Notes under the pieces: generated by a model
Seen by the model: the letters and a program-made list of their open reading frames with translations, nothing else
Databases searched by the model: none
What the model was told of the DNA's origin: nothing
Made by a program: the position numbers and the translations under genes
Part shown: positions 6,318-45,349 of the stretch, one piece after another
Numbering within the stretch: the first letter of the stretch is position 1
How the letters are laid out: each line of letters starts with the position of its first letter
Source of the DNA: Micromonospora noduli
GTDB taxonomy: Bacteria; Actinomycetota; Actinomycetes; Mycobacteriales; Micromonosporaceae
NCBI RefSeq assembly: GCF_003264365.1
Contig: NZ_PYAK01000034.1
Coordinates: 1-64,000 of the forward strand
Direction: 5' to 3'
DNA length: 64,000 nucleotides

Positions 6318-6705
6318 GGGTGGTCCTCCCTGCACCTCGTCCGCTGACGAAAAAGACGTGACGCTTTGGTTTAGCTTCCAATGGGCCGTTCGGGAGTCAC
6401 CTTAACCTGATCGTCTCCCGGAAATCTAGCCGAAAGGTTGATGTACTTAAGGTGTGTCGAGCAATAAAAGGGGCAAATGGCGCGGAAGTTGGGGTGGTTG
6501 TGAGGATCCTTACCCGTTGTCGTCGCTACGGTCCGCCGCCCGGTCCACCGCCGGTCGGTCGGCCGGCTCGGCCGATCGGCCCACGGGTCGCGTCGACTGG
6601 TCAACATGAAATCCGACAAGTCGCCAGGAGTGTCGACTATCCGTCCTTGTCCCGCTGGTGGGACCGGCCGTAGCGTCGCGTGTACACACCCGGTTCGGAG
6701 GCACC
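6318..6705. other. Long non-coding intergenic region upstream of sigF
   Basis: A 388-bp divergent gap between the sigma factor and the decarboxylase-like gene. The part next to sigF (about 6345-6480) is unusually AT-rich for this genome and probably holds its promoter and leader, though I find no clean GTTT/GGGTA pair there. The half nearer 6600 is GC-rich with short GGCCGG repeats. No supportable gene was seen. Confidence 0.5.
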
Positions 6706-7455
6706 GTGCTCGATCCAGCCGCTCCCCAGCTTGTCGTGAACAGCCGCACCCTCTACTTCAGCTGGCTGCCGGCGGATCCCGACGCGGTCGCCGCGCTGGT
6801 CCCGCCGGGGCTCTGCCCCCGCCCCGACCGGCAGGTCTTCCTCAACCAGTACATCGTCGACGACGAGACGCAGACCTCCGGCTTCGGTGCGTACTCGCTG
6901 ACCTACCTCGGCGTCTCGCTGCTGGGCGTCGACGCGCCGGGCGGCCTCAACGCCGGTGGCTGGTGGACCCACTACGTGGCCTCCAGCCGGCTGGTCCGTG
7001 AGTACGCCCTCGCCCGCGGCGCCCCGGTGCTCGCCGGGCGCACCCGGATCGACGTGAACGGCGAGGACCTGGTCTCCGAGACGGAGATCGACGGCACACC
7101 GTTGGTCCGGGCCCGGTGTCGGGTGGGGGAGACCGGTCACGTGATCAGCAGTGGGCACCACCGCTACTTCACCCGGCGCGACGGACAGTTGCTCAGCTCG
7201 GCCTACCCCTTCGTCGCCGAGCCGGTCGCCCCGTTCGAGATCGAGTCGGTGGAGTTCCTCCAGCCCGGCCACCCGATGTACGCGCTGCGCCCGGCCAACC
7301 CGCTGACCATCGGCTTCGGCTACTACTCACCGCGCTCGTCGTTCGCCTACCCCGGCGGGCTGCACGTGCACGCGGTCGCCGCGCCGGAGCCGTCCCGACC
7401 GCGTCACCAGGTGCCGGCCAGCCTCGCCCGCAGCGGCCTGCCGTCCGGGTCGTAG
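6706..7455 (+). CDS. Acetoacetate decarboxylase-like domain protein
   Basis: A 249-residue protein that resembles the acetoacetate decarboxylase (ADC)-like beta-barrel family. Opening residues NSRTLYFSWLPADPDAVAALVPPGLCP match the typical start of these proteins, and NQYIVDDETQTSGFGAYSLTYLGV resembles the early barrel strands. The GTG at 6706 is chosen because GGAGG lies just upstream. The function is not established; many actinobacterial members lack demonstrated decarboxylase activity. Its 3' end overlaps the tail of the convergent PLD-like gene by about 50 bp, which is unusual but both reading frames look real. Confidence 0.75.
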   Translation: MLDPAAPQLVVNSRTLYFSWLPADPDAVAALVPPGLCPRPDRQVFLNQYIVDDETQTSGFGAYSLTYLGVSLLGVDAPGGLNAGGWWTHYVASSRLVREYALARGAPVLAGRTRIDVNGEDLVSETEIDGTPLVRARCRVGETGHVISSGHHRYFTRRDGQLLSSAYPFVAEPVAPFEIESVEFLQPGHPMYALRPANPLTIGFGYYSPRSSFAYPGGLHVHAVAAPEPSRPRHQVPASLARSGLPSGS

Positions 7456-8993
7456 ACCAGCCGGTACATCGGCAGCGCCCAGGCCCGGGTGTACCACGGC
7501 AGCCGTTCGGGGCGGTGCGGGCGCAGCCGCCCGGGCGGCCGTTCTCCCACCTGGCCGTCGTCGTACCACTGCTGTAGCGCGTCGGCGGCGGCCGTGGCGG
7601 CCGCGACGGCGTCCGCCGGGTCCAGCAGGTCGGCGTCGTCCGCGCCGTCCGGGTCGCGGTCCAGGTGCTCGCGCCACAGCCGCAGTCGCAGGTCCCGGGC
7701 GAAGCTCCGCGCGCCGTCGCCCCGCCCAGCGGGGTCGGTGGGCTCCCGCTGGTCGGGGGTGTCGTCGAGCACCGCGCAGGACAACTCGCTGTCGTGCGTC
7801 CAGGACCGCCGGTTGAAGTTGTCGCTGCCCACGCTGGCCCAGACGTCGTCGATCACGCAGACCTTCGCGTGTACGTAGACCGGGCCGCCGGCGTGGTTCT
7901 CCACGTCGAACACGTGCACCCGGTCCGGTGCGGCCTGCTCACACAGTGACAGCGCCTGCTCGCGCCCGACCATGTTCGGCGGCAACGCCAGCCTGCCGTC
8001 CACGTCCGGGTGGCGGGGGACGACGGCGATCAGGTGCAGGTCCGGGTTGTCCCGCAGCGCGTGCGCGAACAGGTCCGCGACCTCGGCCGACCAGAGGTAC
8101 TGATCCTCCAGGTAGATCAGCCGGCGGGCCCGGCGTACCGCCTTTGTGTAACCCCGGGCCACGGTCCGCTCCCCGTGCGGTGCGAACGAGTAGCGCGGGC
8201 GGACGGCGGGGTAGGTGCGCAGCACCTGGATCTGGTGCGGACCGCAGGGCGGCGGATCGGCCGGCTGTTCGGGCAGCGGGTCGGGGCGCAGGTCCGAGCC
8301 GCGCAGCCGGTCCCGCAGGTAGGCCACCGGGTTCTCCGAGTCCAGCGGCATCGGGTCGGTCCAGCGTTCCCGGAACAGGGTGTCCAACGCGCCGACCACC
8401 GGACCGCGCACCGCGAGCTGCACGTCGTGCCAGGGCGGATTGGGTCCGTACCGGGGGGACATCTGCACCGGTTGCGGGTCGCCGTGGTGCGCGGCGTCGT
8501 CGCGGCGGCTGTGGCACAGGTCGATCCCGCCGGCGAAGGCGACGTCCCGCTCGGGCGCGCCCTGGTGCCGCAGCACCACGAGCTTCTGATGGTGCGAGCC
8601 GCCGCGCCGGACCCGTTGGTCCAGCAGCACCTCGCCACCGGCGGCCGAGATCGTCTCGCTGAGGTCGCGGTTCTCGGCCTCGCTGTACGCCAGGACGTCG
8701 AGGTGCGAGCGCCAGATCAACCCCTTGACCACCACACCGCGCTGCGCGGCCTGCGCGAAGAGCTGGGCCACTGTCGGACCGTCCGGGCGCAACCGCTGGT
8801 CCGGGTCACCCCGCCAGTCGGTGAAGAACAGATGGTCGCCGGGGCCCAGGGCCTCGACCTCGCCGACCAGCCGGTCGAAGTAAGCGGCACCGTGAATCAA
8901 CGGCTCGGCGAGGTTTCCCGTGGTCCATACGGGTATGCCAGAGACCGGGTTGGCGCGTTCCTCAGCGGTGAGGAACCAGTCCTGCAACGGCAC
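7404..8993 (-). CDS. Phospholipase D-like (HKD) family protein
   Basis: A 529-residue PLD-superfamily protein with two HKD regions. The C-terminal one is complete (HAKVCVIDDVWASVGSDNFNRRSW). The N-terminal one reads SHHQKLVVLRHQG: His135 and Lys137 are present, but the Asp position is Arg142, so that half-site is degenerate. No signal peptide is evident, so it is probably cytoplasmic or membrane-associated. It could be a phosphodiesterase acting on lipids or nucleic acid. The start at 8993 is the first Met of the frame. It overlaps the convergent decarboxylase-like gene at its 3' end. Confidence 0.85.
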   Translation of the reverse strand: MPLQDWFLTAEERANPVSGIPVWTTGNLAEPLIHGAAYFDRLVGEVEALGPGDHLFFTDWRGDPDQRLRPDGPTVAQLFAQAAQRGVVVKGLIWRSHLDVLAYSEAENRDLSETISAAGGEVLLDQRVRRGGSHHQKLVVLRHQGAPERDVAFAGGIDLCHSRRDDAAHHGDPQPVQMSPRYGPNPPWHDVQLAVRGPVVGALDTLFRERWTDPMPLDSENPVAYLRDRLRGSDLRPDPLPEQPADPPPCGPHQIQVLRTYPAVRPRYSFAPHGERTVARGYTKAVRRARRLIYLEDQYLWSAEVADLFAHALRDNPDLHLIAVVPRHPDVDGRLALPPNMVGREQALSLCEQAAPDRVHVFDVENHAGGPVYVHAKVCVIDDVWASVGSDNFNRRSWTHDSELSCAVLDDTPDQREPTDPAGRGDGARSFARDLRLRLWREHLDRDPDGADDADLLDPADAVAAATAAADALQQWYDDGQVGERPPGRLRPHRPERLPWYTRAWALPMYRLVYDPDGRPLRARLAGTW

Positions 8994-9126
8994 CGTCCAG
9001 CCCCCCTGGAGGTCGGCAACGTCCTCACGGTAGGACCCCCGACGCGGGTCCGCACGCCAGGCCCCCGACCGGTGACCTGGCCAACGCCATCAAAAGCGAC
9101 GCGACAACAGCCGAGGAGGCCACACC

Positions 9127-9255
9127 ATGCCCCGCGACACGACGAATCCCGTGACCGAGAACCGCGAGCCGGCGGTGGAGAGCGAACGGGGTGCGCTGGT
9201 AGCGGTGTTGGTGATGGTGATTCTGGGCGTCGCCGGGATTTTTGCGGTCTCCTGA
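9127..9255 (+). CDS. Small single-pass membrane protein (42 aa)
   Basis: Short gene encoding 42 residues, starting MPRDTTNPVTENREP. A charged N-terminal half (ENREPAVESERG) is followed by one hydrophobic helix (ALVAVLVMVILGVAGIFAVS) at the C terminus. GAGGAGG lies 7 bases before the ATG, a strong ribosome binding site, and the stop is followed by a perfect stem-loop. Divergent from the PLD-like gene. I do not recognise a family, but RBS, frame and terminator together argue that it is real. Confidence 0.65.
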   Translation: MPRDTTNPVTENREPAVESERGALVAVLVMVILGVAGIFAVS

Positions 9256-9258
9256 GGC

Positions 9259-9298
9259 GGCGCCGACGCCCCCGGGGTGAACCGGAGGCGTCGGCGCC
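9259..9298. terminator. Stem-loop terminator, convergent genes
   Basis: Perfect 12-base arms GGCGCCGACGCC and GGCGTCGGCGCC separated by 16 bases. It lies between the 42-aa gene on plus and the pirin gene on minus and probably serves both. Confidence 0.65.
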
Positions 9299-9319
9299 GA
9301 ACCCAGCGGTCGACAGTGG

Positions 9320-10306
9320 TCAGGGCCGGGTGCCCTGGCCGCCGGTGTGCGGGAGCCGCTCGGTGGGGATCACGCCGAGGCGGCCGGCCTTGAAGTCCTC
9401 GAATGCCTTGAGCAGCTCGTCCCGGGTGTTCATCACGAACGGGCCGTACTGTGCCACCGGCTCCCGGATCGGCTGACCACCCATGATGTAGAGGTCCAGT
9501 GCCGCGGTGTTGCTGTCCTGCGAGGTGTCGGCGCTGAACCGCAGCGCGTCACCCGGGCCGTGCACCGCGAGCTGGCCGGTACGCACCGGACGCCGGTCGG
9601 TGCCGACGGTGCCGCGACCGCCCAGCACGTACACCAGGGCGTTGAAGTCGGGCCGCCAGGGCAGGTCGACCTGCGCGCCCGGCTGCACTGTGACGTGCGT
9701 GATGGTGATCGGGGTGAAGGTCGAACCCGGGCCGCGGTGCCCGGCGACCTCGCCGGCGATGACCCGGATCAGCGCGCCGCCGTCGGGCGTGGTGAGCAGC
9801 GCCGACTCCCGACCCCGGATGTCCTGGTAGCGGGGCGGGTTCATCTTGGCCGAGCGGGGCAGGTTGACCCACAGTTGCGTGCCGTGGAAGAGCCCGCCGC
9901 TCATCACCAGGTGCTCCGGCGGCGCCTCGATGTGCAGCAGGCCGCTGCCCGCCGTCATCCACTGGGTGTCGCCGTCGGTGATGGTGCCGCCACCACCGTT
10001 GGAGTCCTGGTGGTCGAAGACGCCGTCGATGATGTAGGTGACGGTCTCGAAGCCGCGGTGCGGGTGCCACGGGGTGCCCTTGGGCTCGCCCGGCGCGTAG
10101 TCGACCTCGCCCATCTGGTCGAGGTGAATGAACGGGTCCAGGTCGGTGGTCGACACCCCGGCGAAGGCGCGACGAACCGGGAAGCCCTCACCCTCGAAGC
10201 CGCTGGGCGCCGTGGTCACCGTGCGGACCGGGCGGATCGTGGCGGCCTCGTCGAGGCGGGGCAGGCGGGGCAGGACGAGAACGTTGTCGACGGTGATCGC
10301 GGGCAT
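9320..10306 (-). CDS. Pirin family protein
   Basis: Cupin-fold pirin of 328 residues. The N-terminal cupin carries the metal-binding set PFIHLDQMG and GTPWHPHRGFETVTYIIDGVFDHQDSNGG (His residues near 75-80), then QWMTAGSGLLHIEAP. Some pirins have quercetin 2,3-dioxygenase activity; others are regulators, and sequence does not decide which. It sits 10 bp downstream of the MarR-type regulator gene on the same strand, an arrangement common for stress or quinone-responsive MarR/pirin pairs. The start is the ATG at 10306 in the sequence MPAITVDNVL. Confidence 0.9.
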   Translation of the reverse strand: MPAITVDNVLVLPRLPRLDEAATIRPVRTVTTAPSGFEGEGFPVRRAFAGVSTTDLDPFIHLDQMGEVDYAPGEPKGTPWHPHRGFETVTYIIDGVFDHQDSNGGGGTITDGDTQWMTAGSGLLHIEAPPEHLVMSGGLFHGTQLWVNLPRSAKMNPPRYQDIRGRESALLTTPDGGALIRVIAGEVAGHRGPGSTFTPITITHVTVQPGAQVDLPWRPDFNALVYVLGGRGTVGTDRRPVRTGQLAVHGPGDALRFSADTSQDSNTAALDLYIMGGQPIREPVAQYGPFVMNTRDELLKAFEDFKAGRLGVIPTERLPHTGGQGTRP

Positions 10307-10316
10307 GTCGAGGCTC

Positions 10317-10805
10317 CTAGCGTGAGGCGGGGGTGGTCGAGCTGACCCGCGATGCCCGCAGGCGCTCGCCGAGCCGGTCGAAGACCCGGGTGAGGCAGGC
10401 GACCTCGGCATCGTCGAGGTCGTCCATGAGATGCGTGCGCACCGACGCCAGATGGTGGGGTGCGGCTTCCCGCAGGGCGAGCAGCCCGGCGGCGGTGAGC
10501 ACCGCCTCGCTGCCGCGCCGGTCGTCCGGGCAGGGCTCCTTGCTGACCAGGCCACGACGCTGCATGGAGGAGACCTGGTAGGTGAGGCGGCTGGGCGAGA
10601 AGATCAACCGGCTGGCCAACTCGCCCATCCGTAGCCGCTGCCCCGGCGCCTCGGAGAGCAGGACCAGCACGTGGTAGTCGGCGAAGCTGAGGTCGCTGTC
10701 GACCCGCAGATCCTCTTCCAACTGCGTGTAGAGACGCTGGCTGGCCTCGATGTAGGCGCGCCAGGCGGCCTCTCGGGTGCTGTCCAGGCTCTCGGTCATG
10801 TCCAC
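10317..10805 (-). CDS. MarR-family transcriptional regulator
   Basis: Winged-helix regulator of 162 residues. LSFADYHVLVLLSEAPGQRLRMGELASRLIFSPSRLTYQVSSMQRRGLVSKEPCPDDRRGSEAVLTAAG is a full MarR wHTH with wing. It is transcribed with the pirin gene, which it probably represses, and is divergent from a GNAT gene across 151 bp. An AT-rich imperfect palindrome just upstream (10815-10837) is a candidate operator. Two Met starts six bases apart are possible; no strong RBS is visible. Confidence 0.9.
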   Translation of the reverse strand: MDMTESLDSTREAAWRAYIEASQRLYTQLEEDLRVDSDLSFADYHVLVLLSEAPGQRLRMGELASRLIFSPSRLTYQVSSMQRRGLVSKEPCPDDRRGSEAVLTAAGLLALREAAPHHLASVRTHLMDDLDDAEVACLTRVFDRLGERLRASRVSSTTPASR

Positions 10806-31334: not shown

Positions 31335-31359
31335 GGTTTGCCGCCCGGTCACCGGGGAA
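31335..31359 (+). promoter_or_regulatory. Possible SigF/SigB-type promoter for the ChaB gene
   Basis: GGTTTG, 13-base spacer, GGGGAA on plus, 37 bases before the ChaB ATG. The -35 is good; the -10 deviates from GGGTAT. Confidence 0.45.
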
Positions 31360-31396
31360 CGGTCACAGTGACAGTGTCGACACGGAGGAGGACGAG

Positions 31397-31798
31397 ATGC
31401 CCGGGCGCGAAGACCTGCCCAGCACGCTGCGACGCTCCCCGGAGAAGGCGCAGCGCACATGGGAGAAGACGCACGACTCGGCGGTCGAGACCTACGGCGA
31501 GGGGGAGCGGTCGCACCGCACCGCCTTCGCCGCCGTGAAGCATGAGTTCGAGAAGGTGGGCGACCACTGGGAGCCGAAGGGCCGCAAGGGCCCCAGCGAC
31601 CAGCAGGCCGCCGGTGGCGGGCCGGAACGGCGGGCCCCCACAGCCGGTGGCGTGGACGCCAACGCCACCAAGGACCACCTGATGTCGGTGGCCCGCAAAC
31701 TCGACGTGCCCGGGCGGTCCGGCATGACCAAACCGGAGCTGGTCACGGCCATCGAGAAGGCCAACGACCGCGCCACCCGCAAGGCCCGCGGCGACTGA
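31397..31798 (+). CDS. ChaB family protein
   Basis: A 133-residue protein with an N-terminal ChaB domain (about 5-65: DLPSTLRRSPEKAQRTWEKTHDSAVETYGEGERSHRTAFAAVKHEFEKVGDHWEPKG), a Gln/Gly-rich linker, and a C-terminal SAP/Rho-N-like helix pair (ATKDHLMSVARKLDVPGRSGMTKPELVTAIEKANDRATRKARG) that may bind nucleic acid. ChaB was named as a cation-transport regulator, but the function is unresolved. GGAGGAGG precedes the ATG. Divergent from YihY, with which it may share stress control. Confidence 0.9.
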   Translation: MPGREDLPSTLRRSPEKAQRTWEKTHDSAVETYGEGERSHRTAFAAVKHEFEKVGDHWEPKGRKGPSDQQAAGGGPERRAPTAGGVDANATKDHLMSVARKLDVPGRSGMTKPELVTAIEKANDRATRKARGD

Positions 31799-35121: not shown

Positions 35122-35898
35122 TTAGCGGGTGATGTTGCGGTGTTTGCTGCGGAGGCGGAAGGGCATGAGCGCGCTCTCCACCTTGGTCGCGGTGGTCATC
35201 TTGGAGACGCCGTCGCGCCGCTCCTCGAAGCGGATCGGCACCTCCAGGATGGTGTGCCCCAGCTTGGTGGCGAGGTAGTGCATCTCCACCTGGAAGCTGT
35301 AGCCGTTGGACTGCACCCGCTCCAGGTCGATGTCGCGCAGGGCTTCGGCCTGCCAGATCTTGAAGCCGGCGGTCAGGTCCCGGATACGTACCCGTAGCAG
35401 GGTGTGCACGTAAAGGTTGGCCCAGCCACTGAGCGCCCGGCGGTAGAGCGGCCAGTTCTCGTCCAGCTCGCCGCCGGGGACGTACCGGGAACCGATCACC
35501 ACACTGGCCTGGGTGGAGAGCAGCGCGCCGAGCATCCCCGGCAGCGCCTCGGGCGGGTGCGAGAGGTCGGCGTCCATCTGCGCCACGTACTCGGCGCCGC
35601 CCTCGATCGCCCGGGTCATCCCGTCCACGTACGCCCGGCCGAGGCCCTCCTTGCCGGCGCGGTGCACCACCTCGATCCGGTCGGGGTGCTCGATGGCCAG
35701 CTTGTCGGCCACCTCCCCGGTGCCGTCGGGGGAGTTGTCATCGGCGACGAGGATGCGCAGCCCCGGCAGCGGCAGCGCGAGCAGCCGCTCGACCAGCGCC
35801 GGGAGGTTGCCCGCCTCGTTGTACGTGGGCACCACGACGGTCAGGCGTGCGTCCCGCCACGGCGTCGGCAACTGCACCGGCTTGATCATGTCGGTCAT
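35122..35898 (-). CDS. Polyprenol-phosphate mannosyltransferase-like GT2
   Basis: A 258-residue glycosyltransferase family 2 enzyme resembling dolichol/polyprenol-phosphate mannose synthase. TVVVPTYNEAGNLPALVERLL, VADDNSPDGTGEVAD, EGLGRAYVDGMTRAIEGGAEYVAQMDADLSHPPEALP (DxD metal site) and GSRYVPGGE are all present. LTAGFKIWQ and VEMHYLATKLGHTILEVPIRFEERRDGVSKM complete the family pattern. It would transfer a hexose, typically mannose, from GDP-mannose to polyprenyl phosphate at the membrane. The start is chosen at MTDMIKPVQ; longer starts at 35922 or beyond are possible. Confidence 0.88.
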   Translation of the reverse strand: MTDMIKPVQLPTPWRDARLTVVVPTYNEAGNLPALVERLLALPLPGLRILVADDNSPDGTGEVADKLAIEHPDRIEVVHRAGKEGLGRAYVDGMTRAIEGGAEYVAQMDADLSHPPEALPGMLGALLSTQASVVIGSRYVPGGELDENWPLYRRALSGWANLYVHTLLRVRIRDLTAGFKIWQAEALRDIDLERVQSNGYSFQVEMHYLATKLGHTILEVPIRFEERRDGVSKMTTATKVESALMPFRLRSKHRNITR

Positions 35899-36036
35899 CC
35901 TCGGTTTGCGGACAAGGGTCATGGAAAGGGTATCTAGTTCCCGCATTCGGTCTGAGGGAGGCACCCCTTCCGGGAGTTGCGGACCCTCGCCACCCACCGT
36001 GCGCAGGCGTCGAAGCCCTGGTCAGAGGCTCGCTGG

Positions 36037-37038
36037 TCAACGACGACGGCGAGCGACCGCGTTGAGGGCGAGCGCTGCGACGGCGATCGCGACACCGGAG
36101 AGCGCTGGTTTGTGCGTGCCCACCCACAGTGCCGCGGAACGGTCCCGCGCCTGTTCGCGGAACACGCCCGCCGTGCCCCGGTCCGTGTCCGCATCGCCGG
36201 GGTGATCCAGATTGTCCCGCCAGGTCGCCGGATCGATCTTCTCGCCGGTCTGCTGGCTGTCGTAGCCGTCGCGGGCCAGCTTGCGGTCCAGCAGGCCGGG
36301 GAACAGGGCGTCGCCCACCCGGGCCTGCCAGGTCGGGCCACCCACGTTCAGCTCCCTGGTGCCACGGTCGGCGGCCCAGACGATGGCCCGGGCGGCCAGC
36401 TCCGGAGTGAAGATCGGCGGTACCGGTTGCGGATGCCGGGGCAGCCGGGTGCGGACCCAGGAGAACTGCGGCGTGTTGACCGCGGGCAGCTGCACCATTG
36501 ACAACTTCACCCCCGGGCAGTCGTGCAGCAGCTCGGCGCGCAGCGAGTCGTTGAACCCCTGGACGGCGTGCTTGCTGGCGCAGTACGCCGACTGCAGCGG
36601 GATCCCCCGATAAGCCAACGCCGAGCCCACCTGCACGATCGTGCCCCGCCCGTGCGCCCGCATGTGCCGCAGCGCGGCGAGGGTGCCGTGCACCGTGCCC
36701 AGGTAGGTGACCTCGGTGACCCGACGGAACTCGCGAGCCGGGATCTCCCAGGCCGGCGCGAACACCGACGCCATCGCGTTGTTGATCCACACGTCGATGC
36801 CGCCCCACCGGTGCACCACGTCGTCGGCGGCCTGCTGCACCGCGCCCGCGTCGGCCACGTCGACCCGGTACACCCGCACGTCGGTCGCGCCGCGCAGTCG
36901 GCACTCCCGCTCGGCGGCGACCAGACCCGCCTCGCCCCGGGCCAGCAGCGCCAGCCGGGCGCCGCGCGCCGCGTACGCGTGGGCGACGGCCCGACCGACG
37001 CCGGCGCTCGCCCCGGTCACCACCACGGTCTGCGTCAC
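36037..37038 (-). CDS. SDR family oxidoreductase
   Basis: A 333-residue short-chain dehydrogenase. Cofactor motif VVVTGASAGVGRAVAHAYAARG, NNA in VWINNAMASVFAP, catalytic Ser in VQVGSALAYRGIPLQSAYCASKHAVQGF with Tyr-x-x-x-Lys (YCASK). A C-terminal extension ends in a hydrophobic helix (LSGVAIAVAALALNAVARRRR), so it is probably membrane-anchored. The GTG start overlaps the stop of the upstream SRPBCC gene by four bases. The substrate is unknown. Confidence 0.88.
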   Translation of the reverse strand: MTQTVVVTGASAGVGRAVAHAYAARGARLALLARGEAGLVAAERECRLRGATDVRVYRVDVADAGAVQQAADDVVHRWGGIDVWINNAMASVFAPAWEIPAREFRRVTEVTYLGTVHGTLAALRHMRAHGRGTIVQVGSALAYRGIPLQSAYCASKHAVQGFNDSLRAELLHDCPGVKLSMVQLPAVNTPQFSWVRTRLPRHPQPVPPIFTPELAARAIVWAADRGTRELNVGGPTWQARVGDALFPGLLDRKLARDGYDSQQTGEKIDPATWRDNLDHPGDADTDRGTAGVFREQARDRSAALWVGTHKPALSGVAIAVAALALNAVARRRR

Positions 37039-37532: not shown

Positions 37533-37682
37533 TTCTCTCAGACGGCGGGTAAGGCCGACCCGGGGCATCGCTGGCGGCGCTGGCCCACCGCCTCCACGAC
37601 GACGTTTACTCCTCGGGGCGCAGGGAACCCGCCGGCTGTGCGACAGGACCAGGAGGATCCGTATCAGCGCAGGTCAGCCCAG

Positions 37683-39314
37683 GTGTACGCCGCTGCTGAC
37701 CGCGCCGGTTCCGGGTCTGTCGCAAGCCCCCGAGCGGTGCTCTACGACGCGGTGCTGCTGGACCGCGACGGCACCCTGATCGAGGACGTGCCGTACAACG
37801 GCGACCCGGAGAAGGTGCGGCCGGTGCCGGGCGCTCGGGCGGCGCTGGACCGGCTGCGCGCGGCCGGGCTGCGGCTGGCGGTCGTCACGAACCAGTCGGG
37901 CCTGGCCCGGGGTTACTTCACCGGTGAGCAGATGCGGGCCGTGCACGCCCGCGTCGAGGAGTTGCTGGGCCGGTTCGACGCGTGGCTGGTCTGCCCGCAC
38001 GACGACGCCGACGGCTGTGACTGCCGCAAGCCGGCGCCGGGCCTGGTGTACGCCGCCGCCCGAGAGTTGGGCACGACGCCGTCCCGCTGCGTACTCGTGG
38101 GCGACATCGGCCGGGACGTCGGCGCCGCCATGGCCGCCGGGGCCGCGGGGGTGCTGGTGCCCACCCCGGTGACCCGGCCGGAGGAGGTCGTCGCCGCCGG
38201 GTGGGTGGCCACCGATCTGCCGGCGGCGGTGGCGGAGATCCTGCGCCGCCAACAGGCTGTGCAGCCCTCGACCCCGACCACCGAACCGGTACGGACGGCG
38301 CTCGTGGTCCGCTCGGATTCGGCGGGTGACGTGCTGGTCACCGGCCCGGCGATCCGCGCCGTCGCGGCTGGAGCGGAGCGGGTGGTGCTGCTGTGCGGGC
38401 CGCGTGGTCGGGCCGCCGCCGACCTGTTGCCCGGCGTCGACGAGATCATCGAGCATCCGCTGCCGTGGATCGACCCCGCGCCGGGGCCGGTCGACCCGGA
38501 GGCCATGCGGAGCCTGTCCGCGCGGCTGGGTGCGGTCGGCGCGGACCAGGCGGTGGTGTTCACCTCGTTCCACCAGTCCGCCCTGCCGCTGGCGCTGCTG
38601 TTGCGGATGGCGGGGGTCCACCGGATCGCGGCGATCAGCGACGACTATCCGGGCTCGCTGCTGGACATCCGGCACCGGGTGCCGGTGGGCGTCCCCGAAC
38701 CCGAACGTGCCCTTTCCCTGGCCGCCGCCGCCGGCCACCGGCTGCCCCACGGCGACGAACCGGTCCTGCGGCTGCGCCGAGACGCCGTGCCGCCGCGCCC
38801 GGCCGACCTCGGCGATCCGGGGTACGTGGTGCTGCACCCCGGGTCGGCCGCGTCGAGCCGGGCCTGCCCGCCCGAGGTGGCCACCCGGATCGTCGGGGCG
38901 CTGGCCGACGCCGGGCACCGGGTGCTGGTGACCGGCGGCCCGGACGAGCGCGCGGTCACCGCCCGGGTCGCCGCGGCCGGCGGCACCGACCTGGGCGGCC
39001 GCACCGACCTGGCCGGGCTGGCCGCTATCGTCGCGGACGCCAGCGCGGTGGTGGTGGGCAACACCGGGCCCGCGCACCTGGCGGCCGCCGCCGGTGTGCC
39101 GGTGGTGAGTCTCTTCGCGCCGACCGTCCCGTTCGGCCAGTGGGGGCCCTACCGGGTGCCGACCGTCCGGCTCGGCGACGCCGCCGCTCCCTGCCGGGAC
39201 ACCCGGGCGGCCAGTTGCCCGGTCCCCGGGCACCCCTGCCTCAGCGGCGTCGACCCGGGCGACGTGGTCGACGCGCTGCGAACTCTCGCCGTCAGCGGTG
39301 GTGGCGGCCGATGA
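37683..39314 (+). CDS. GmhB-type heptose-bisphosphate phosphatase fused to a GT9 glycosyltransferase
   Basis: A 543-residue fusion. Residues 20-190 are a HAD-IIIA phosphatase: nucleophile pair LLDRDGT (Asp27, Asp29), VVTNQSGLARGYF, zinc ligands in CPHDDADGCDCRKP, and VGDIGRDVGAAMAAG. This is the pattern of D-glycero-D-manno-heptose-1,7-bisphosphate 7-phosphatase. From about residue 200 follows a GT9 heptosyltransferase-like domain (SDSAGDVLVTGPAIRAVAAG, VLHPGSAASSRACPPEVATRIV, GNTGPAHLAAAAGVPVVSLFAPTVPFGQWGPY). First gene of a tightly overlapping operon. The GTG at 37683 is the best visible start, but a further GTG at 37737 is possible. Confidence 0.85.
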   Translation: MYAAADRAGSGSVASPRAVLYDAVLLDRDGTLIEDVPYNGDPEKVRPVPGARAALDRLRAAGLRLAVVTNQSGLARGYFTGEQMRAVHARVEELLGRFDAWLVCPHDDADGCDCRKPAPGLVYAAARELGTTPSRCVLVGDIGRDVGAAMAAGAAGVLVPTPVTRPEEVVAAGWVATDLPAAVAEILRRQQAVQPSTPTTEPVRTALVVRSDSAGDVLVTGPAIRAVAAGAERVVLLCGPRGRAAADLLPGVDEIIEHPLPWIDPAPGPVDPEAMRSLSARLGAVGADQAVVFTSFHQSALPLALLLRMAGVHRIAAISDDYPGSLLDIRHRVPVGVPEPERALSLAAAAGHRLPHGDEPVLRLRRDAVPPRPADLGDPGYVVLHPGSAASSRACPPEVATRIVGALADAGHRVLVTGGPDERAVTARVAAAGGTDLGGRTDLAGLAAIVADASAVVVGNTGPAHLAAAAGVPVVSLFAPTVPFGQWGPYRVPTVRLGDAAAPCRDTRAASCPVPGHPCLSGVDPGDVVDALRTLAVSGGGGR

Positions 39315-40285
39315 ACATCCTGCTCTGGCACGTGCACGGCTCCTGGACCACGTCGTTCGTGCACGGCAGCCATCGCTACCTGATTCCCACCACACCCGAC
39401 CGCGGCCCGTACGGCCTCGGCCGGGCCCGCACCTACCCGTGGCCGGACAGCGCTGTCGAGGTCAGCCCGGGGGAGTTGCCGAGCGCTGACGTCGACCTGG
39501 TCATCCTGCAACGCCCCGAGGAGATCGACCGGGCCGAGCAGTGGCTTCGTCGCCGCCCCGGTCGCGACCTTCCGGCGATCTACGTCGAGCACAACACCCC
39601 CAAGGGCGACGTGCCGAACACCCGCCACCCGATGGCCGACCGCGACGACCTGCTCATCGCCCACGTCACCGGGTTCAACCAGATCTTCTGGGACACCGGC
39701 GCCACGCGCTCCACAGTGGTCGACCACGGCATCGTCGCTCCCTCCGCGTCCTACACCGGGGAGCTGGACCGACTCGCCGTGGTGATCAACGAGCCGGTAC
39801 GGCGAGGTCGGGTCACCGGCACCGACCTGCTGCCCCAGTTCGCCGAGATCGCGCCGCTGGACGTCTTCGGCATGGGCGTCGCCGGCCTGGCCGACCACCT
39901 CGGGCTGCCCGCCGACCGGCTGACCAGCCACGATGACGTGCCCCAGGAGCGGATGCACACCGAACTGGCTCGCCGGCGGGCGTACCTGCATCTGTGCCGG
40001 TGGACCTCCCTCGGGCTCAGCCTCATCGAGGCGATGGCGATCGGCATGCCGGTCGTCGCGCTCGCCACCACCGAGGCGGTGATGGCGGTGCCCCCGGAGG
40101 CGGGGGCGCTCGCCACCCGGACCGACACCCTGCTCGACGCCGCCCGCCGGTTCATCGCCGAACCGGCTACCGCGCGGCAGGCCGGAGCGGCGGCGCGAAC
40201 CGCCGCGCGCGACAGGTACGGCCTCGACCGTTTCCTCGCTGACTGGGACCGGCTGCTGGAGGAGGAAGTATGCGGATCGCGATGA
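39311..40285 (+). CDS. Glycosyltransferase (GT-B type)
   Basis: A 324-residue glycosyltransferase that begins MNILLWHVHGSWTTSFVHGSHRYLIP. The recognisable donor-binding end is HLCRWTSLGLSLIEAMAIGMPVVALATTEAVMAVP, as in GT4-like enzymes, and the central EHNTPKGDVPNTRHPMADRDD segment is family-specific. The ATG overlaps the upstream stop (ATGA), and its 3' end overlaps the next gene by 16 bp. Donor and acceptor are not known; context suggests a heptose- or hexose-containing glycan. Confidence 0.82.
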   Translation: MNILLWHVHGSWTTSFVHGSHRYLIPTTPDRGPYGLGRARTYPWPDSAVEVSPGELPSADVDLVILQRPEEIDRAEQWLRRRPGRDLPAIYVEHNTPKGDVPNTRHPMADRDDLLIAHVTGFNQIFWDTGATRSTVVDHGIVAPSASYTGELDRLAVVINEPVRRGRVTGTDLLPQFAEIAPLDVFGMGVAGLADHLGLPADRLTSHDDVPQERMHTELARRRAYLHLCRWTSLGLSLIEAMAIGMPVVALATTEAVMAVPPEAGALATRTDTLLDAARRFIAEPATARQAGAAARTAARDRYGLDRFLADWDRLLEEEVCGSR

Positions 40286-41487
40286 TCTCGGAGCACGCCA
40301 GCCCGCTCGCCGTCCTCGGAGGGGAGGATGCCGGCGGCCAGAACACCCACGTCGCGGAGCTGTCCGCCGCGCTCGCCGCCGCCGGGCACGAGGTGCGGGT
40401 CTACACCCGCCGCGACGCGCCCGACCTGCCGGTGACCGTCCGCAGCCCGGACGGGTACGACGTGGTGCACGTGCCGGCCGGCCCGGCCGAGCCGGTGGCC
40501 AAGGACGCGCTGCTGCCGCACATGCGGGAGTTCAGCAACTGGCTGATCGAGCGGTGGCGCGGCGGCGACTGGGTGCCCGAGGTGATCCACGCGCACTTCT
40601 GGATGAGCGGCCTGGCCGGGCTGAGCGCCGGCCGGCAGACCGGGGTGCCGGTGGTGCAGACGTACCACGCGCTGGGCACTGTGAAGCGCCGCTACCAGGG
40701 TGTGCAGGACACCAGCCCGGCCCGACGGGTCTCCTACGAGCGGGAGCTGGGCCGCTCGGTGGACCGGATCGTCGCGCAGTGCCGCGACGAGGTGGGCGAA
40801 CTGGTCCGGATGGGTGTGCCCCGGTCCCGGATGACAGTGGTGCCCTCCGGGGTCAACCTCGCCACCTTCGCCCCGCTCGGACCGGCCGCCGACCGGGAAC
40901 CGGGGCGGGCCCGCATCCTCACCGTGGGTCGGCTGGTCGAGCGCAAGGGCTTCCAGACCGTGATCCGCGCGATGGCGTTGGTCCCGGACGCCGAGTGCGT
41001 GGTCGTCGGCGGCCCGCCCGAGGGGCTGTTGGAGACCGACCCGTACGCCCGGCGGCTGCGGGCCCTCGCGGAGTCGTGCGGGGTTGCCGATCGGGTGCAC
41101 CTGGTCGGCGCGGTGCCCCGGGAGGAGATGGGCCGCTGGTACCGCTCGGCGGACCTGCTGGTCGCGGCGCCCTGGTACGAGCCGTTCGGGTTGACCCCGC
41201 TGGAGGCGATGGCCTGTGGGGTTCCGGTCGTCGGCACGGCAGTGGGCGGCATCCGGGACACAGTGGTCGACGGGACGACCGGTGACCTCGTGCCGGCCCG
41301 GGACCCGCACGCCCTGGCCACCGCGATCCAGGGGCTGCTCGACGACCGGATCAGGCGTTTCGCGTACGCGACGGCGGCGCGTGAGCGGGCCCGGGAGCGG
41401 TACTCGTGGGCGGCCACCGCCGAGCGGCTGGTCGAGGTCTACAGCGAGGTGGCCGCCGTGCGCCGGCCGACCCGGGTGGTGGCCTGA
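40270..41487 (+). CDS. GT4 family glycosyltransferase
   Basis: A 405-residue GT-B glycosyltransferase. The acceptor domain starts MRIAMISEHASPLAVLGGEDAGGQNTHVAELSAALAAAGHEVRVYTRRD, the MshA-like signature. The donor domain contains RILTVGRLVERKGFQTVIRAM and APWYEPFGLTPLEAMACGVPVVGTAVGGIRDTVVDGTTGDLV (E-x7-E). It overlaps both neighbours, so it is an integral part of the heptose operon. Probably uses a nucleotide-activated sugar at the cytoplasmic face. Confidence 0.9.
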   Translation: MRIAMISEHASPLAVLGGEDAGGQNTHVAELSAALAAAGHEVRVYTRRDAPDLPVTVRSPDGYDVVHVPAGPAEPVAKDALLPHMREFSNWLIERWRGGDWVPEVIHAHFWMSGLAGLSAGRQTGVPVVQTYHALGTVKRRYQGVQDTSPARRVSYERELGRSVDRIVAQCRDEVGELVRMGVPRSRMTVVPSGVNLATFAPLGPAADREPGRARILTVGRLVERKGFQTVIRAMALVPDAECVVVGGPPEGLLETDPYARRLRALAESCGVADRVHLVGAVPREEMGRWYRSADLLVAAPWYEPFGLTPLEAMACGVPVVGTAVGGIRDTVVDGTTGDLVPARDPHALATAIQGLLDDRIRRFAYATAARERARERYSWAATAERLVEVYSEVAAVRRPTRVVA

Positions 41488-42200
41488 TGCCGACGGGCAG
41501 CCTGCTCGACACCCACCTGACGAATCTCGCCGCGGCGCTGGTGCCGTACCGACGGTGTGAGCGACAGCTGGCGCGCTGGGGCGCGGACCTGGCCCACCGG
41601 CTGGCCGCCGGGGGGCGCCTGCTGGTGGCCGGCAACGGCGGCAGCGCCGCGGAGGCCCAGCACCTCACCGCCGAGCTGGTGGGCAAGCTGCACGACGACC
41701 GCCAGCCGCTGTCCGCGATCGCGTTGCACGCCGAGACGAGCGCGCTCACCGCCATCGCCAACGACTACGGCTACACCGACGTGTACGCCCGCCAGGTGCG
41801 CGCCCACGGCCGCCCGGGCGACATCCTGCTGTTGCTGAGCACCAGCGGAACCAGCCCCAACCTGGTCGCCGCCGCGCAGGCCGCCCGCGACGTCGGGGTG
41901 ACCACCTGGGCGCTCACCGGCACCGCGCCCAATCCGCTCGCCGACGCCTGCGACGACGTGCTGGCCGTCGCGTCCCCGGACACCCAGGTCGTCCAGGAGC
42001 TGCACCTGGTGACCAGTCATCTGCTCTGCGAGTACCTCGAACAGGAGTTGCCCGCCGCGCTGGCGGCAGTCGCCGATCCGGCGGTCGTCCACCCCGGGCC
42101 CGGGGAGCCCGCACCGGCCGGTCGGCTGCCTTCCGCGCCGGTACGCACCGGGGTCGAGGTGGTGCTCGACGGCGGGCCCGGACAGCAGGTCGACGCGTGA
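41487..42200 (+). CDS. gmhA: D-sedoheptulose-7-phosphate isomerase GmhA-like (SIS domain)
   Basis: A 237-residue sugar isomerase. LLVAGNGGSAAEAQHLTAELVGKL, then ALTAIANDYGYTDVYARQVRAHGRPGDILLLLSTSGTSPNLVAAAQAARD, and the metal-binding QELHLVTSHLLCEYLE are all conserved in GmhA. It would convert sedoheptulose 7-phosphate to D-glycero-D-manno-heptose 7-phosphate, the first step of the ADP-heptose route. It is about 45 residues longer than usual: a Pro/Gly-rich C-terminal tail. Stop and start with the upstream GT4 overlap by one base (TGATG). Confidence 0.88.
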   Translation: MPTGSLLDTHLTNLAAALVPYRRCERQLARWGADLAHRLAAGGRLLVAGNGGSAAEAQHLTAELVGKLHDDRQPLSAIALHAETSALTAIANDYGYTDVYARQVRAHGRPGDILLLLSTSGTSPNLVAAAQAARDVGVTTWALTGTAPNPLADACDDVLAVASPDTQVVQELHLVTSHLLCEYLEQELPAALAAVADPAVVHPGPGEPAPAGRLPSAPVRTGVEVVLDGGPGQQVDA

Positions 42201-42224
42201 GTCGGACAGCAGGTCGACGCGTGA
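42179..42224 (+). repeat. Short tandem duplication at the gmhA 3' end
   Basis: Two exact 22-base copies (42179-42200 and 42203-42224) with a 24-base period. The first copy ends in the gmhA TGA; the second carries the same codons and stop again just before the hldE RBS. Confidence 0.9.
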
Positions 42225-42240
42225 CGATGAGGAGGCAAGC

Positions 42241-43701
42241 GTGAGGGGACCGGTGGTGGTGCTCGGGGACACCCTGCTCGACCGGGATGTGGAAGGTGTG
42301 GTGAACCGGCTCTGCCCGGATTCCCCGGTGCCGGTGCTCGACGAGACCGTGGCCACCGACCGACCGGGGGGCGCCGGGTTGGCGGCGGTGTTCGCCGCCG
42401 CGCAGGGCGCCGAGGTGGTGCTGGTGACCGCGCTCGCCGACGACGCCGGCGGGGCCCGGCTGAGCGCGCTGCTCGCCGCCGCCGGCGTGCAGGTGTATCC
42501 CCTGGCCCTCTCCGGTGCGACGCCGGAGAAGATCCGGCTGCGGGCCCGGGGGCGGGTGCTGCTGCGCCACGACCGGGGCGGGGCGTCCGGGGAGCCGGGT
42601 CAGCCCTCCGACGAGGTGCTCCGGGTGATCGCCGCGGCGTCGGCGGTGCTGGTCAGCGACTACGGCCGGGGGGTGGCCCGGCAGCCCGCGCTGCGCGACG
42701 CGTTGGCCGCCACCCGCGCACCGGTGGTGTGGGACCCGCATCCGCGCGGCCCGGCAGCCGTGCCCGGCGTACACCTGGCCACCCCGAACGAGTCCGAGGT
42801 GCGCGAGCTGGTCCCCGCGCTGCCCGGGGCCTCCCGACTTGCCACCGCGTCCCGCGGCGCCCAGGGGCTACGACGGCGCTGGCGCGCCGGCGCGGTCGCT
42901 GTGACGCTGGGCGGCGACGGTGCGCTGCTCTGCCACGCCGGGTCCACGCCGCTGGTGGTGCCGACGCCGGGTAGCGCCGAGGGGGACACCTGCGGTGCCG
43001 GCGACCGGTTCGCGGCGGCGGCCAGCCTCGCACTGGCCCAGGGCGCGCTGGTCTCCGAGGCGGTGCAGGTGGCGGTCGCCGAGGCGTCCGCGTACGTGGC
43101 CGGTGGGGGAGTGGCTACGGTGCTGCCTCCATCGGCGCCTACGGTGCGGGCCAGGAGTGCGCCGGGGCCGCGAGCCCTCCAGCCGGCACCACGAGGTGGT
43201 GCGGTGGCCGACCGGGTGGGAGTCGCAGCTGTCGCCACGCTCCTGGGTGAGGTACACGCCGCGGGTGGCACTGTGGTGGCGACCGGCGGTTGCTTCGACC
43301 TGCTGCACGCCGGGCACGTGGCCACCCTGGAGGCGGCGCGGCAGCTCGGCGACTGCCTCATCGTCTGCCTGAACTCCGACGCCAGCGTGGCCGGGTTGAA
43401 GGGGCCGGATCGGCCGGTGCAGTCCGAAGCTGACCGCAGCCGACTGCTGGCCGCCCTGAGCTGCGTCGACGCGGTCCTCATCTTCGACGAGCCGACCCCG
43501 GAGACGGCGCTGTCCTGGGTACGCCCCGACGTGTGGGTCAAGGGCGGCGACTACGCCACCGGCGGTGGGGACGCGAGCGTCACCCTGCCGGAGGCGGAGG
43601 TCCTGCGCCGCTGGGGTGGGAACACCGTGGTGGTGCCCTACCTGGACGGTCGTTCCACCACCGACCTGATCGTCCGCACGCTCGCGGAGCGGACCCGATG
43701 A
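42241..43701 (+). CDS. hldE: Bifunctional heptose-7-phosphate kinase / heptose-1-phosphate adenylyltransferase
   Basis: A 486-residue two-domain enzyme. The N-terminal PfkB-type kinase (1 to about 300) has VVVLGDTLLDRDVEGVVNRLCPDSPVPVLDE, RPGGAGLAAVFAAAQGA and the catalytic GDTCGAGDRFAAAAS. The C-terminal nucleotidyltransferase (about 325-486) has TGGCFDLLHAGHVATLEAARQLGD (HxGH), NSDASVAGLKGPDRPVQSEADR and VKGGDYA. It would phosphorylate heptose 7-phosphate at C1 and, after GmhB, adenylylate it to ADP-heptose. Strong GAGGAGG RBS. The stop overlaps the next gene start. Confidence 0.9.
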   Translation: MRGPVVVLGDTLLDRDVEGVVNRLCPDSPVPVLDETVATDRPGGAGLAAVFAAAQGAEVVLVTALADDAGGARLSALLAAAGVQVYPLALSGATPEKIRLRARGRVLLRHDRGGASGEPGQPSDEVLRVIAAASAVLVSDYGRGVARQPALRDALAATRAPVVWDPHPRGPAAVPGVHLATPNESEVRELVPALPGASRLATASRGAQGLRRRWRAGAVAVTLGGDGALLCHAGSTPLVVPTPGSAEGDTCGAGDRFAAAASLALAQGALVSEAVQVAVAEASAYVAGGGVATVLPPSAPTVRARSAPGPRALQPAPRGGAVADRVGVAAVATLLGEVHAAGGTVVATGGCFDLLHAGHVATLEAARQLGDCLIVCLNSDASVAGLKGPDRPVQSEADRSRLLAALSCVDAVLIFDEPTPETALSWVRPDVWVKGGDYATGGGDASVTLPEAEVLRRWGGNTVVVPYLDGRSTTDLIVRTLAERTR

Positions 43702-44399
43702 CCGCCACGCGGCCCGGCGCCGGGCCCACCGTCCTGGTCACCGGCGGCGCCAGCGGCCTCGGCGCGGCGGTGGTCGCCGCGGTGGCCGCCTCCGGTGGCC
43801 GACCGCTCGTGCTGGACCGGCAACCGCCGGCCGACGGGGTGTCCTGGACCGAGTGCGACCTGGCCGACACGCGAGCCGCCGAGGTGGCCACCCAGCACCT
43901 CGCCGAGCAGGCCGGTGGCCTGGACGCGGTGGTGACCGCCGCCGGCACGGACGTGCCGGGTCGACTCGGCGACCTGCCGGGGGAGACCTGGGACCGGATC
44001 GTCGCCGTCGACCTGCTGGCCACCGCGGCGGTGATCCGGGCCGCGCTGCCGTTCCTGCTGACCTCCCGGGGCCGCATCGTCACCGTCGCCTCAACCCTGG
44101 GCGTCAAGGCGGTCAGTGACGCCACCGCGTACTGCGCGGCGAAGTTCGGCGTGGTGGGGTTCACCCGAGCCCTCGCCGCCGAGCTGGCCGGTCAGGTCGG
44201 CGTCACCCTGCTCATTCCGGGTGGGATGCGTACCGCGTTCTTCGACGAACGTGACCCGCAGTACAAGCCGGGGCCGGACGCGAACCTCAACGAGCCCGCC
44301 GACACCGCTGCCGCGATCATGTTCGCGCTCAACCAGCCGCCCGGTTGCGCGGTGCGCGAGATGGTGGTCTGCGCCGAGCAGGAGACCTCGTACCCGTGA
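43698..44399 (+). CDS. SDR family oxidoreductase in the heptose operon
   Basis: A 233-residue classical SDR. VLVTGGASGLGAAVVAAVAASGG (cofactor), VVTAAGTDVPGRLG, TVASTLGVKAVSDATAYCAAKFGVVGFTRALAAEL (Ser/Tyr-x-x-x-Lys). It sits where a Gram-negative cluster often has the ADP-heptose 6-epimerase HldD, but HldD is an extended SDR of about 310 residues with different motifs, so this is not an obvious epimerase. It may oxidise or reduce a sugar or carrier in this pathway. ATGA overlap with hldE and GTGA overlap with the GT9 gene. Confidence 0.85.
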   Translation: MTATRPGAGPTVLVTGGASGLGAAVVAAVAASGGRPLVLDRQPPADGVSWTECDLADTRAAEVATQHLAEQAGGLDAVVTAAGTDVPGRLGDLPGETWDRIVAVDLLATAAVIRAALPFLLTSRGRIVTVASTLGVKAVSDATAYCAAKFGVVGFTRALAAELAGQVGVTLLIPGGMRTAFFDERDPQYKPGPDANLNEPADTAAAIMFALNQPPGCAVREMVVCAEQETSYP

Positions 44400-45349
44400 T
44401 CCTCGTGCTGCGCGCCCTCGGCGTCGGCGATCTGGTGACCGCGGTGCCCGCGCTGCGGGCGCTGCGGGCCGCGTACCCGTCGCGGGAGCTGGCGCTCGCC
44501 GCGCCCGGCTGGCTGGCCCCGCTGGTCGACCTGGTCGGTGGCGTCGACCGGCTGGTGGACACCGCCGGGCTGGATCGCCCTCTCCGGGTGGGGTCGGCCC
44601 CGCGGGTCGCGGTCAACCTGCACGGGCGCGGCCCGCAGTCGCACCGGCTGCTCGCGGCAACCCGGCCCGGTCGGCTGCTCGCCTTCGCCAGCCCGGACGC
44701 CGGCTGCGCCGACGGCCCGCGCTGGGCCGTCGACGAGCACGAGGTGGACCGGTGGTGCCGGCTGCTGTCCTGGTACGACATCCCGGCCGACCGCGCCGAC
44801 CTCAGCCTGCGTCGGCCCGGGGCGGCGGGGCTGCCCAGCGGTGTCACAGTGCTGCACCCGGGCAGCAAGATCCCGGCCAAGCGGTGGCCCGCCGAGCGGT
44901 TCGCCGCGCTGGCCCGGGCGCTGACCGACCAGGGGCACCGGGTGCTGCTCACCGGCTCGGCCGACGAACGGGCGTTGGCGGCCCGGGTGGCGGAGGCGGC
45001 GGGCCTGAGCTCGGACGCCGTGCTGGCCGGCAGGACCGACCTCGGCGCGCTCGCCGCGCTGGTGGCCGACGCCCGGCTGGTGGTCAGCGGGGATACCGGG
45101 GTCGCCCACCTGGCCACCGGGTACGGCACCCCGTCGGTCGTCCTCTTCGGGCCGGTGCCACCGGCGCACTGGGGGCCTCCACCGGATCGGCCGCGGCACC
45201 GGGTGCTCTGGGCCGGCGAGGCGGATTGGCCCAGGTGGGACGGGGTAGGAAGCCACCCGACGATGGCGGCTCTGCGCCTTGACGAGGTGCTGGCCGCCGT
45301 GGCCGAGGTGGAGAGGGTGGTGCGGGTCTCCGGTGCGGTTGCGGCGTAG
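44396..45349 (+). CDS. GT9 family (ADP-heptose:heptosyltransferase-like) glycosyltransferase
   Basis: A 317-residue GT9 enzyme starting at GTG 44396, which overlaps the SDR stop. VLRALGVGDLVTAVPALRALRAAYP is the N-terminal signature, TVLHPGSKIPAKRWPAERFAALARALTDQGHRVLLTGSADE begins the donor-binding half, and VSGDTGVAHLATGYGTPSVVLFGPVPPAHWGPP completes it. This is the second GT9 domain of the operon, besides the one fused to GmhB. The acceptor must be something other than LPS in this organism. Confidence 0.88.
   Translation: MILVLRALGVGDLVTAVPALRALRAAYPSRELALAAPGWLAPLVDLVGGVDRLVDTAGLDRPLRVGSAPRVAVNLHGRGPQSHRLLAATRPGRLLAFASPDAGCADGPRWAVDEHEVDRWCRLLSWYDIPADRADLSLRRPGAAGLPSGVTVLHPGSKIPAKRWPAERFAALARALTDQGHRVLLTGSADERALAARVAEAAGLSSDAVLAGRTDLGALAALVADARLVVSGDTGVAHLATGYGTPSVVLFGPVPPAHWGPPPDRPRHRVLWAGEADWPRWDGVGSHPTMAALRLDEVLAAVAEVERVVRVSGAVAA

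Follow-up and report, generated by a model that had tools for sequence, protein, structure and literature searches.

A putative reduced cwg-type operon of Micromonospora noduli and its probable product, a heptose-containing envelope glycan

The cwg operon of Streptomyces coelicolor (SCO6179-6190) is induced by vancomycin, depends in part on sigma-E and is predicted to make a cell-wall glycan (PMC6767563). SCO6182 is named a dehydratase, SCO6186 a putative phosphoheptose isomerase and SCO6187 a bifunctional synthase/transferase (PMC5839063). When 13 candidates were tested in S. coelicolor, SCO6185 ranked within the five whose transcription was the most stable (PMC4630627). The word heptose is absent from the main text of three papers that name cwg. 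This study concerns an operon of the same type in Micromonospora noduli, found in a stretch of 64,000 nucleotides (contig NZ_PYAK01000034.1, positions 1 to 64,000), hereafter the window. As a Micromonosporaceae form of cwg, this operon probably makes nucleoside diphosphate (NDP)-D-glycero-D-manno-heptose and uses it to build a heptose-containing envelope glycan.

Two other systems are useful for comparison. The Gram-negative lipopolysaccharide (LPS) system comprises GmhA, HldE, GmhB, HldD and WaaC/WaaF. The window has the same families for NDP-heptose synthesis and for transfer by glycosyltransferase (GT) family GT9, but its genome has no HldD match over the cut-off, and the window has additional transferases of GT4 type. 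LPS is not expected in Micromonospora. The septacidin and hygromycin B pathways of Streptomyces involve ADP-heptose in a Gram-positive actinomycete, as is proposed here, in the part of the source seen (PMC10221265); these are natural-product pathways, whereas many lineages share the window operon, and the tree of its marker groups by taxon. Text searches gave no direct report of heptose in actinomycete walls; the nearest reports, both seen in part, concern Rhodococcus ruber, in which gmhD was deleted (PMC12786566), and Frankia, in which salt induces a heptosyltransferase (PMC5563000).

Seven genes of the + strand are packed within positions 37683-45349 (Table 1), as judged from the list of open reading frames (ORFs) with starts read from the sequence. 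Five of the six gene junctions overlap, by 4, 16, 1, 4 and 4 bases, and the spacing between gmhA and hldE is 40 bases. An earlier note on this DNA had described seven near-overlapping genes (GmhB joined to a GT9, a GT-B, a GT4, GmhA, HldE, a short-chain dehydrogenase/reductase (SDR) and a second GT9) with four glycosyltransferase domains; the ORFs and the Pfam and NCBIfam matches agree with this gene list, and the Pfam domains together with the structure model of the GT-B enzyme (GTB) account for the four transferase domains. Given that the gene set and its catalytic residues are conserved across many genera, a chance co-occurrence of these genes is untenable. A short direct repeat of about 16 bases, spotted by eye, occurs at the end of gmhA and in the gap between gmhA and hldE (42188-42225).

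Table 1. Genes of the operon and the element upstream of it (positions in the window)
Feature	Position	Strand	Basis and remarks
Promoter-like element GTTT-N15-GGGAAC	37604-37628	+	Upstream of the operon; alignment of Micromonosporaceae upstream regions
gmhB-GT9a fusion	37683-39314	+	GmhB domain ~37749-38250, GT9 domain ~38508-39206; Pfam/NCBIfam
GT-B glycosyltransferase, GT4 kind (GTB)	39311-40285	+	Predicted structure and structural matches; used as operon marker
GT4 glycosyltransferase	40270-41487	+	Pfam Glycos_transf_1 and Glyco_transf_4
gmhA, putative sedoheptulose 7-phosphate isomerase	41487-42200	+	SIS/GmhA, TIGR00441
hldE, putative heptose 7-phosphate kinase / heptose 1-phosphate nucleotidyltransferase	42241-43701	+	PfkB and cytidylyltransferase-like, NF008454
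Classical short-chain dehydrogenase/reductase (SDR)	43698-44399	+	adh_short; ATG at 43698
GT9b, heptosyltransferase-type glycosyltransferase	44396-45349	+	Glyco_transf_9

The products of gmhA, hldE and gmhB belong to the families of the ADP-heptose route, as the earlier note had proposed. GmhA scores 159.8 bits against TIGR00441 (cut-off 209.45), and its best PDB match is the phosphoheptose isomerase 2xbl (E 7e-40). HldE scores 250 bits against NF008454 (cut-off 521) and 168.6 against rfaE_dom_II (cut-off 181.5); its PDB relatives are a heptose 7-phosphate kinase and a putative cytidylyltransferase. The GmhB domain, of the HAD-IIIA/GmhB kind, reaches 123.5 bits against the beta-heptose bisphosphatase model (NCBI curated cut-off 178) and has heptose bisphosphate phosphatases as PDB relatives. 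The proposal thus finds support in the families, the PDB relatives and the catalytic motifs, with scores that lie below the cut-offs.

The residues that we take to be catalytic in the characterised enzymes of the GmhB, GmhA, HldE, SDR and GT9 families were counted in sets of 98 to 112 loci (75 in the case of the SDR), using only loci in which the residue was aligned and setting aside those fetched later from other classes. The nucleophile and acid/base Asp of GmhB are present in 99 of 100 and 100 of 100 loci, and its Cys-His-Cys-Cys loop is kept in 99-100 of 100. The catalytic Glu of GmhA is found in all 112 loci and the His in 109 of the 112. Among 111 HldE loci, the Asp of GAGD is conserved in 104/104 and both His of HxGH in 105/105 of those aligned at these positions, and the Arg of GRSTT occurs in 84/105. 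The window HldE reads YLDGRSTT, to be compared with the STTR5 motif (F/L)XXGRSTT of promiscuous heptose nucleotidyltransferase: the Arg is at position five, but position one is Tyr and not Phe or Leu. This Arg has been linked to the use of CTP and UTP besides ATP by heptose nucleotidyltransferase, in the part of the source seen (PMC11573728).

A search of the genome shows that the operon gmhA is its only GmhA match and the operon gmhB its only strong GmhB match (three others score at most 28 bits). None of 13 matches in the genome to the HldD 6-epimerase exceeds the cut-off (best 114.8 bits versus 274.6), and in the control, matches over the cut-off were obtained in 2 of 14 genomes. The set formed by GmhA, the HldE kinase/nucleotidyltransferase and GmhB is, by homology, complete and has intact catalytic motifs.

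A divergent second HldE-type kinase/nucleotidyltransferase (323.9 bits) lies elsewhere in the same genome, next to a GT2 and a GT9 (L038, G000:C44:6001-26000, 6552-10499). Since no further GmhA match exists in the genome, its substrate may come from the window operon. Its assignment as a "tridomain synthetase" was rejected, as Pfam and NCBIfam show kinase and nucleotidyltransferase domains only.

GT9b is a heptosyltransferase-type glycosyltransferase. It matches Glyco_transf_9 with E 1.6e-30, its best PDB match is 1psw, the ADP-heptose LPS heptosyltransferase II (E 1.6e-19), and its PDB relatives include LPS heptosyltransferases II and I. In its DTGxxH motif, Asp, Gly and His are kept in 97/97 loci and Thr in 96/97. 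The GT4 protein scores 255.2 bits against the MshA model (cut-off 462.5) and has 6kih and 3c4q as nearest solved chains. For GTB, the AlphaFold2 model has a mean predicted local distance difference test (pLDDT) of 94.9 and a predicted template modelling score (pTM) of 0.91. Among its structural matches a tetrahydrobiopterin glucosyltransferase ranks first (Z 27.4), and BshA, TarM, MshA and PimA match over about 300 residues with Z 24.9-27.1, root-mean-square deviation 2.8-3.4 and 14-17% identity. The best E value in Foldseek is 4.2e-11. The alignment of 40 GTB sequences has 47 invariant columns. GTB is, on its modelled fold, a GT-B enzyme of GT4 kind, a fold which fixes neither the donor nor the acceptor.

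The SDR matches adh_short (E 3.1e-34), and its Ser, Tyr and Lys are present in 75/75 loci; the scripts took its start one codon late (43701). By Pfam and NCBIfam it is a classical SDR and not an HldD-type epimerase.

From these assignments a pathway can be proposed, of which the steps to NDP-heptose and the GT9b transfer are drawn because the enzyme families are known. GmhA would convert sedoheptulose 7-phosphate into D-glycero-D-manno-heptose 7-phosphate, which the kinase of HldE would phosphorylate to the 1,7-bisphosphate. The GmhB domain would then take off the 7-phosphate, and the nucleotidyltransferase of HldE would turn the resulting heptose 1-phosphate into NDP-heptose, namely ADP-heptose and perhaps CDP- or UDP-heptose as well. 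The heptose would be transferred by GT9b, and GT9a, GTB and GT4 would add further residues onto a cytoplasmic acceptor such as a lipid; the finished product would be exported and join the cell envelope. The genome has seven LCP-family matches, and proteins of this family could attach the polymer to the wall. That heptose is the actual substrate, as well as the sugar sequence, the acceptor, the export, the wall attachment and the role of the SDR, is what we infer.

The window operon was compared with cwg through a Streptomyces coelicoflavus locus (L127), the published promoter and the published gene names. The order in L127 is epimerase, carbamoyltransferase, GT2, GmhB, GT9a, GTB, GT4, GmhA, HldE, GT9b and then another GT2, so that the core is the same and in the same order as in the window. 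Judged by their positions, SCO6182, SCO6186 and SCO6187 correspond to GmhB, GmhA and HldE of L127, and SCO6185 to GT4. The published cwg promoter is found upstream of the L127 operon with 26 of 29 bases identical (none expected by chance), and in two further loci, L149 and L049, with 26/29 and 27/29.

The two operons also differ. The window lacks the dehydratase/epimerase, the carbamoyltransferase and the GT2 that correspond by position to cwgA-C, and the second GT2 that follows GT9b in L127. Domain scans of the operon and its neighbours did not find the three genes that precede the core beside the window operon, and the one carbamoyltransferase match of the genome is a 46-residue remnant elsewhere. 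Conversely, the window operon includes the SDR, which among loci over 20 kb is present (at least 50% identity) in 37 of 38 from outside the Streptomycetaceae and in 0 of 20 Streptomycetaceae loci, and its GmhB is fused to GT9a. The sigma-E-type promoter is not recognised at the window operon, where a different conserved element is found. It thus appears from the gene comparison that the window operon is a reduced Micromonosporaceae form of a cwg-type operon and not an isolated anomaly. The earlier note had concluded that the heptose enters a glycan or glycolipid other than LPS; the enzyme set, the four transferase domains and the absence of an HldD over the cut-off favor this reading, to which the comparison adds that the operon is widespread and cwg-like.

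The carbamoyltransferase remnant belongs to what seems to be a truncated second cwg-type operon on contig C1 of the same genome (L059, G000:C1:168001-186000, 7366-8072, - strand). There, carbamoyltransferase residues 3-45 abut GT9b residues 114-308, as if all between them had been deleted, although a misassembly may be the cause.

Gene content was counted in the best 80 of 297 relatives, named loci found via GTB, from which 22 loci not over 20 kb were dropped to leave 58; GTB is present in 58/58 by construction. The other locus sets were mostly picked by HldE matches and were therefore kept out of these counts. The seven-gene core (GmhB, GT9a, GTB, GT4, GmhA, HldE and GT9b, the SDR not being counted) is complete in 52 of the 58 loci. 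The conserved synteny that the earlier note proposed to look for exists in Micromonosporaceae, Streptomyces and other lineages. GT4 is present in 58 loci, GmhA and HldE in 57 each, GT9a in 55, and GmhB and GT9b in 53 each. The accessory genes found elsewhere are the carbamoyltransferase (PF16861, PF02543; 51 loci), a GT2 (GT2b, 52) and an NAD-dependent epimerase/dehydratase (47), and the SDR occurs in 37. The carbamoyltransferase is present in only one of the seven Micromonosporaceae loci. In most loci outside this family GmhB and GT9a are two separate matches.

Within the genus, a strong HldE match (E 3.4e-219 or better) was obtained in 15 of 16 genomes, that of M. noduli included, and seven of the 16 have a second HldE copy (66-69% identity). 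In the class, 98 of 394 genomes, from 45 of 137 genera, have GTB; across the phylum it was detected in 27 of 246 genomes, and 18 of these belong to other classes. Sixteen of the loci from these 18 genomes were fetched: ten have the full core, two have no detected GmhA, one has no GmhB within the stretch and three are diverged. As far as these searches indicate, the operon is widespread but patchy in the phylum.

Micromonospora orduensis has the GTB closest to that of the window (93% identity over 320 columns), and named Micromonospora loci share the wider surroundings of the operon; both place the window in Micromonospora or a very close relative. A GTB tree with 128 rows puts its 31 Streptomycetaceae rows to one side of a branch (support 96), and the four groups require 4 changes, compared with a shuffled mean of 31.1. 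The root of this tree was not determined and 44 of its 124 inner branches are weak. The tree suggests mainly vertical descent, with exceptions. A recent acquisition from Gram-negative bacteria was rejected, since the GC content of the operon (75-76%) is above that of most of the window and the rows of the GTB tree group by taxon. One genome (G134) has two operon copies, L039 and L040, whose GTB genes are sisters (support 100) despite their differing operon layout, which suggests gene conversion between the copies.

The conserved element upstream of the operon, GTTT-N15-GGGAAC, is exact in 16/16 Micromonosporaceae upstream regions (window included) versus 2 of 8000 Markov-simulated regions, odds that are indicative only, the pattern having been picked by eye after alignment. 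We take it to resemble sigma-B/sigma-F-type stress promoters. None of five regions ahead of carbamoyltransferase-led operons has an exact copy. Downstream of the element, the earliest start in frame is the GTG at 37683, the putative start of gmhB-GT9a. The window has two exact matches versus 0.03 expected; the second (31336-31360, + strand) is just 5' of the ORF 31397-31798, which possibly responds to the same regulator.

Several observations weigh against the proposal that the operon makes a heptose glycan as a form of cwg. The scores of GmhA, GmhB and HldE are all under the NCBI equivalog cut-offs, and because of this the three names are homology calls and not certified by the models. GT9a has Asn where the GT9 donor motif usually has Asp, in 107/107 aligned loci, so the donor or the role of this enzyme may be different. 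The window operon is without the carbamoyltransferase, GT2b and epimerase found in cwg, and the 461 bases ahead of it have no conserved sigma-E-type motif (a single AAC-N-GTC is not kept in 15 relatives), so that it may differ from cwg in product or regulation. Of 15 Streptomyces-type loci, 3 have a recognisable cwg promoter and the other 12 reach 14-17 of 29 bases, so it would be recognisable near S. coelicolor only or lie, in the other loci, outside the stretch read. In the GTB tree, two loci of the window's own family (L067 and L068) fall among the rows of another family, and Cellulomonas fimi and Herbidospora are apart from their kin. Finally, no Wzx/Wzy or other exporter was seen among the operon genes, a genome-wide search for them not having been made.

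An alternative destination for the heptose is a membrane glycolipid, a lipoglycan or a glycoprotein, that is, a short oligosaccharide on lipid or protein and not a wall-linked polymer. This is possible, although distinctly less likely than a cwg-like glycan. The presence of four transferase domains with no polymerase or flippase recognised among the operon genes would fit such a product. So would the structural closeness of GTB to PimA, MshA and BshA, which are lipid- and small-molecule-acceptor enzymes; but GTB is also close to TarM, a wall teichoic acid enzyme. On the other hand, the induction of cwg by vancomycin in Streptomyces points to the wall, without proving it.

It is also conceivable, but improbable, that the GmhA, HldE and GmhB homologues act on another sugar phosphate and that the glycan has no heptose. 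GT9 enzymes are not restricted to heptose, and both the sub-threshold scores and the invariant Asn of GT9a are compatible with this idea. Against it, the whole pathway travels together in the loci found via GTB (GmhA 57/58, HldE 57/58 and GmhB 53/58), with its catalytic residues kept. The incorporation of heptose into an antibiotic such as septacidin or hygromycin B is very improbable: actinomycetes do make heptose natural products by the same route, in the parts of the sources seen (PMC10221265, PMC11461863), but assembly-line or resistance genes are absent among the operon genes and scanned neighbours, the marker occurs in 45 of the 137 genera sampled, the core is found in other classes and the tree is strongly clustered by taxon.

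The earlier note had also pointed to a polyprenol-phosphate GT2 near the operon. A GT2 is present at 35122-35997, but it is below every NCBIfam cut-off and outside the widely conserved core. This GT2, an SDR at 36037-37038 and a topoisomerase IB were rejected as core members, as matches of at least 60% identity occur near the core only in Micromonosporaceae (6, 2 and 6 of 7 loci, respectively, and 0 of 51 others). Some other loci (e.g., L046, L051, L077, L091, L099, L110 and L177) do have lower-scoring SRPBCC, topoisomerase and SDR matches nearby.

The cwg-type operon is already known, and the novelty of this work is moderate: the window variant and the heptose prediction add to it, and the heptose link is not claimed to be unpublished. 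In the portions of the literature seen, the cwg product is just a predicted cell-wall glycan; the comparison made here predicts a measurable sugar, D-glycero-D-manno-heptose, and also which lineages would carry this heptose carbamoylated and which would not. Tentatively, Actinomycetota may share an ancient glycan of the envelope whose basis is D-glycero-D-manno-heptose; most lineages would carbamoylate it and many Micromonosporaceae would not. Such a glycan would be a Gram-positive counterpart of the LPS inner core, made in Streptomyces by the vancomycin-responsive cwg operon. NDP-heptoses are ligands of the vertebrate innate sensor ALPK1, in the part of the source seen (PMC11573728), and for this reason Actinomycetota that make NDP-heptose would be of wider interest.

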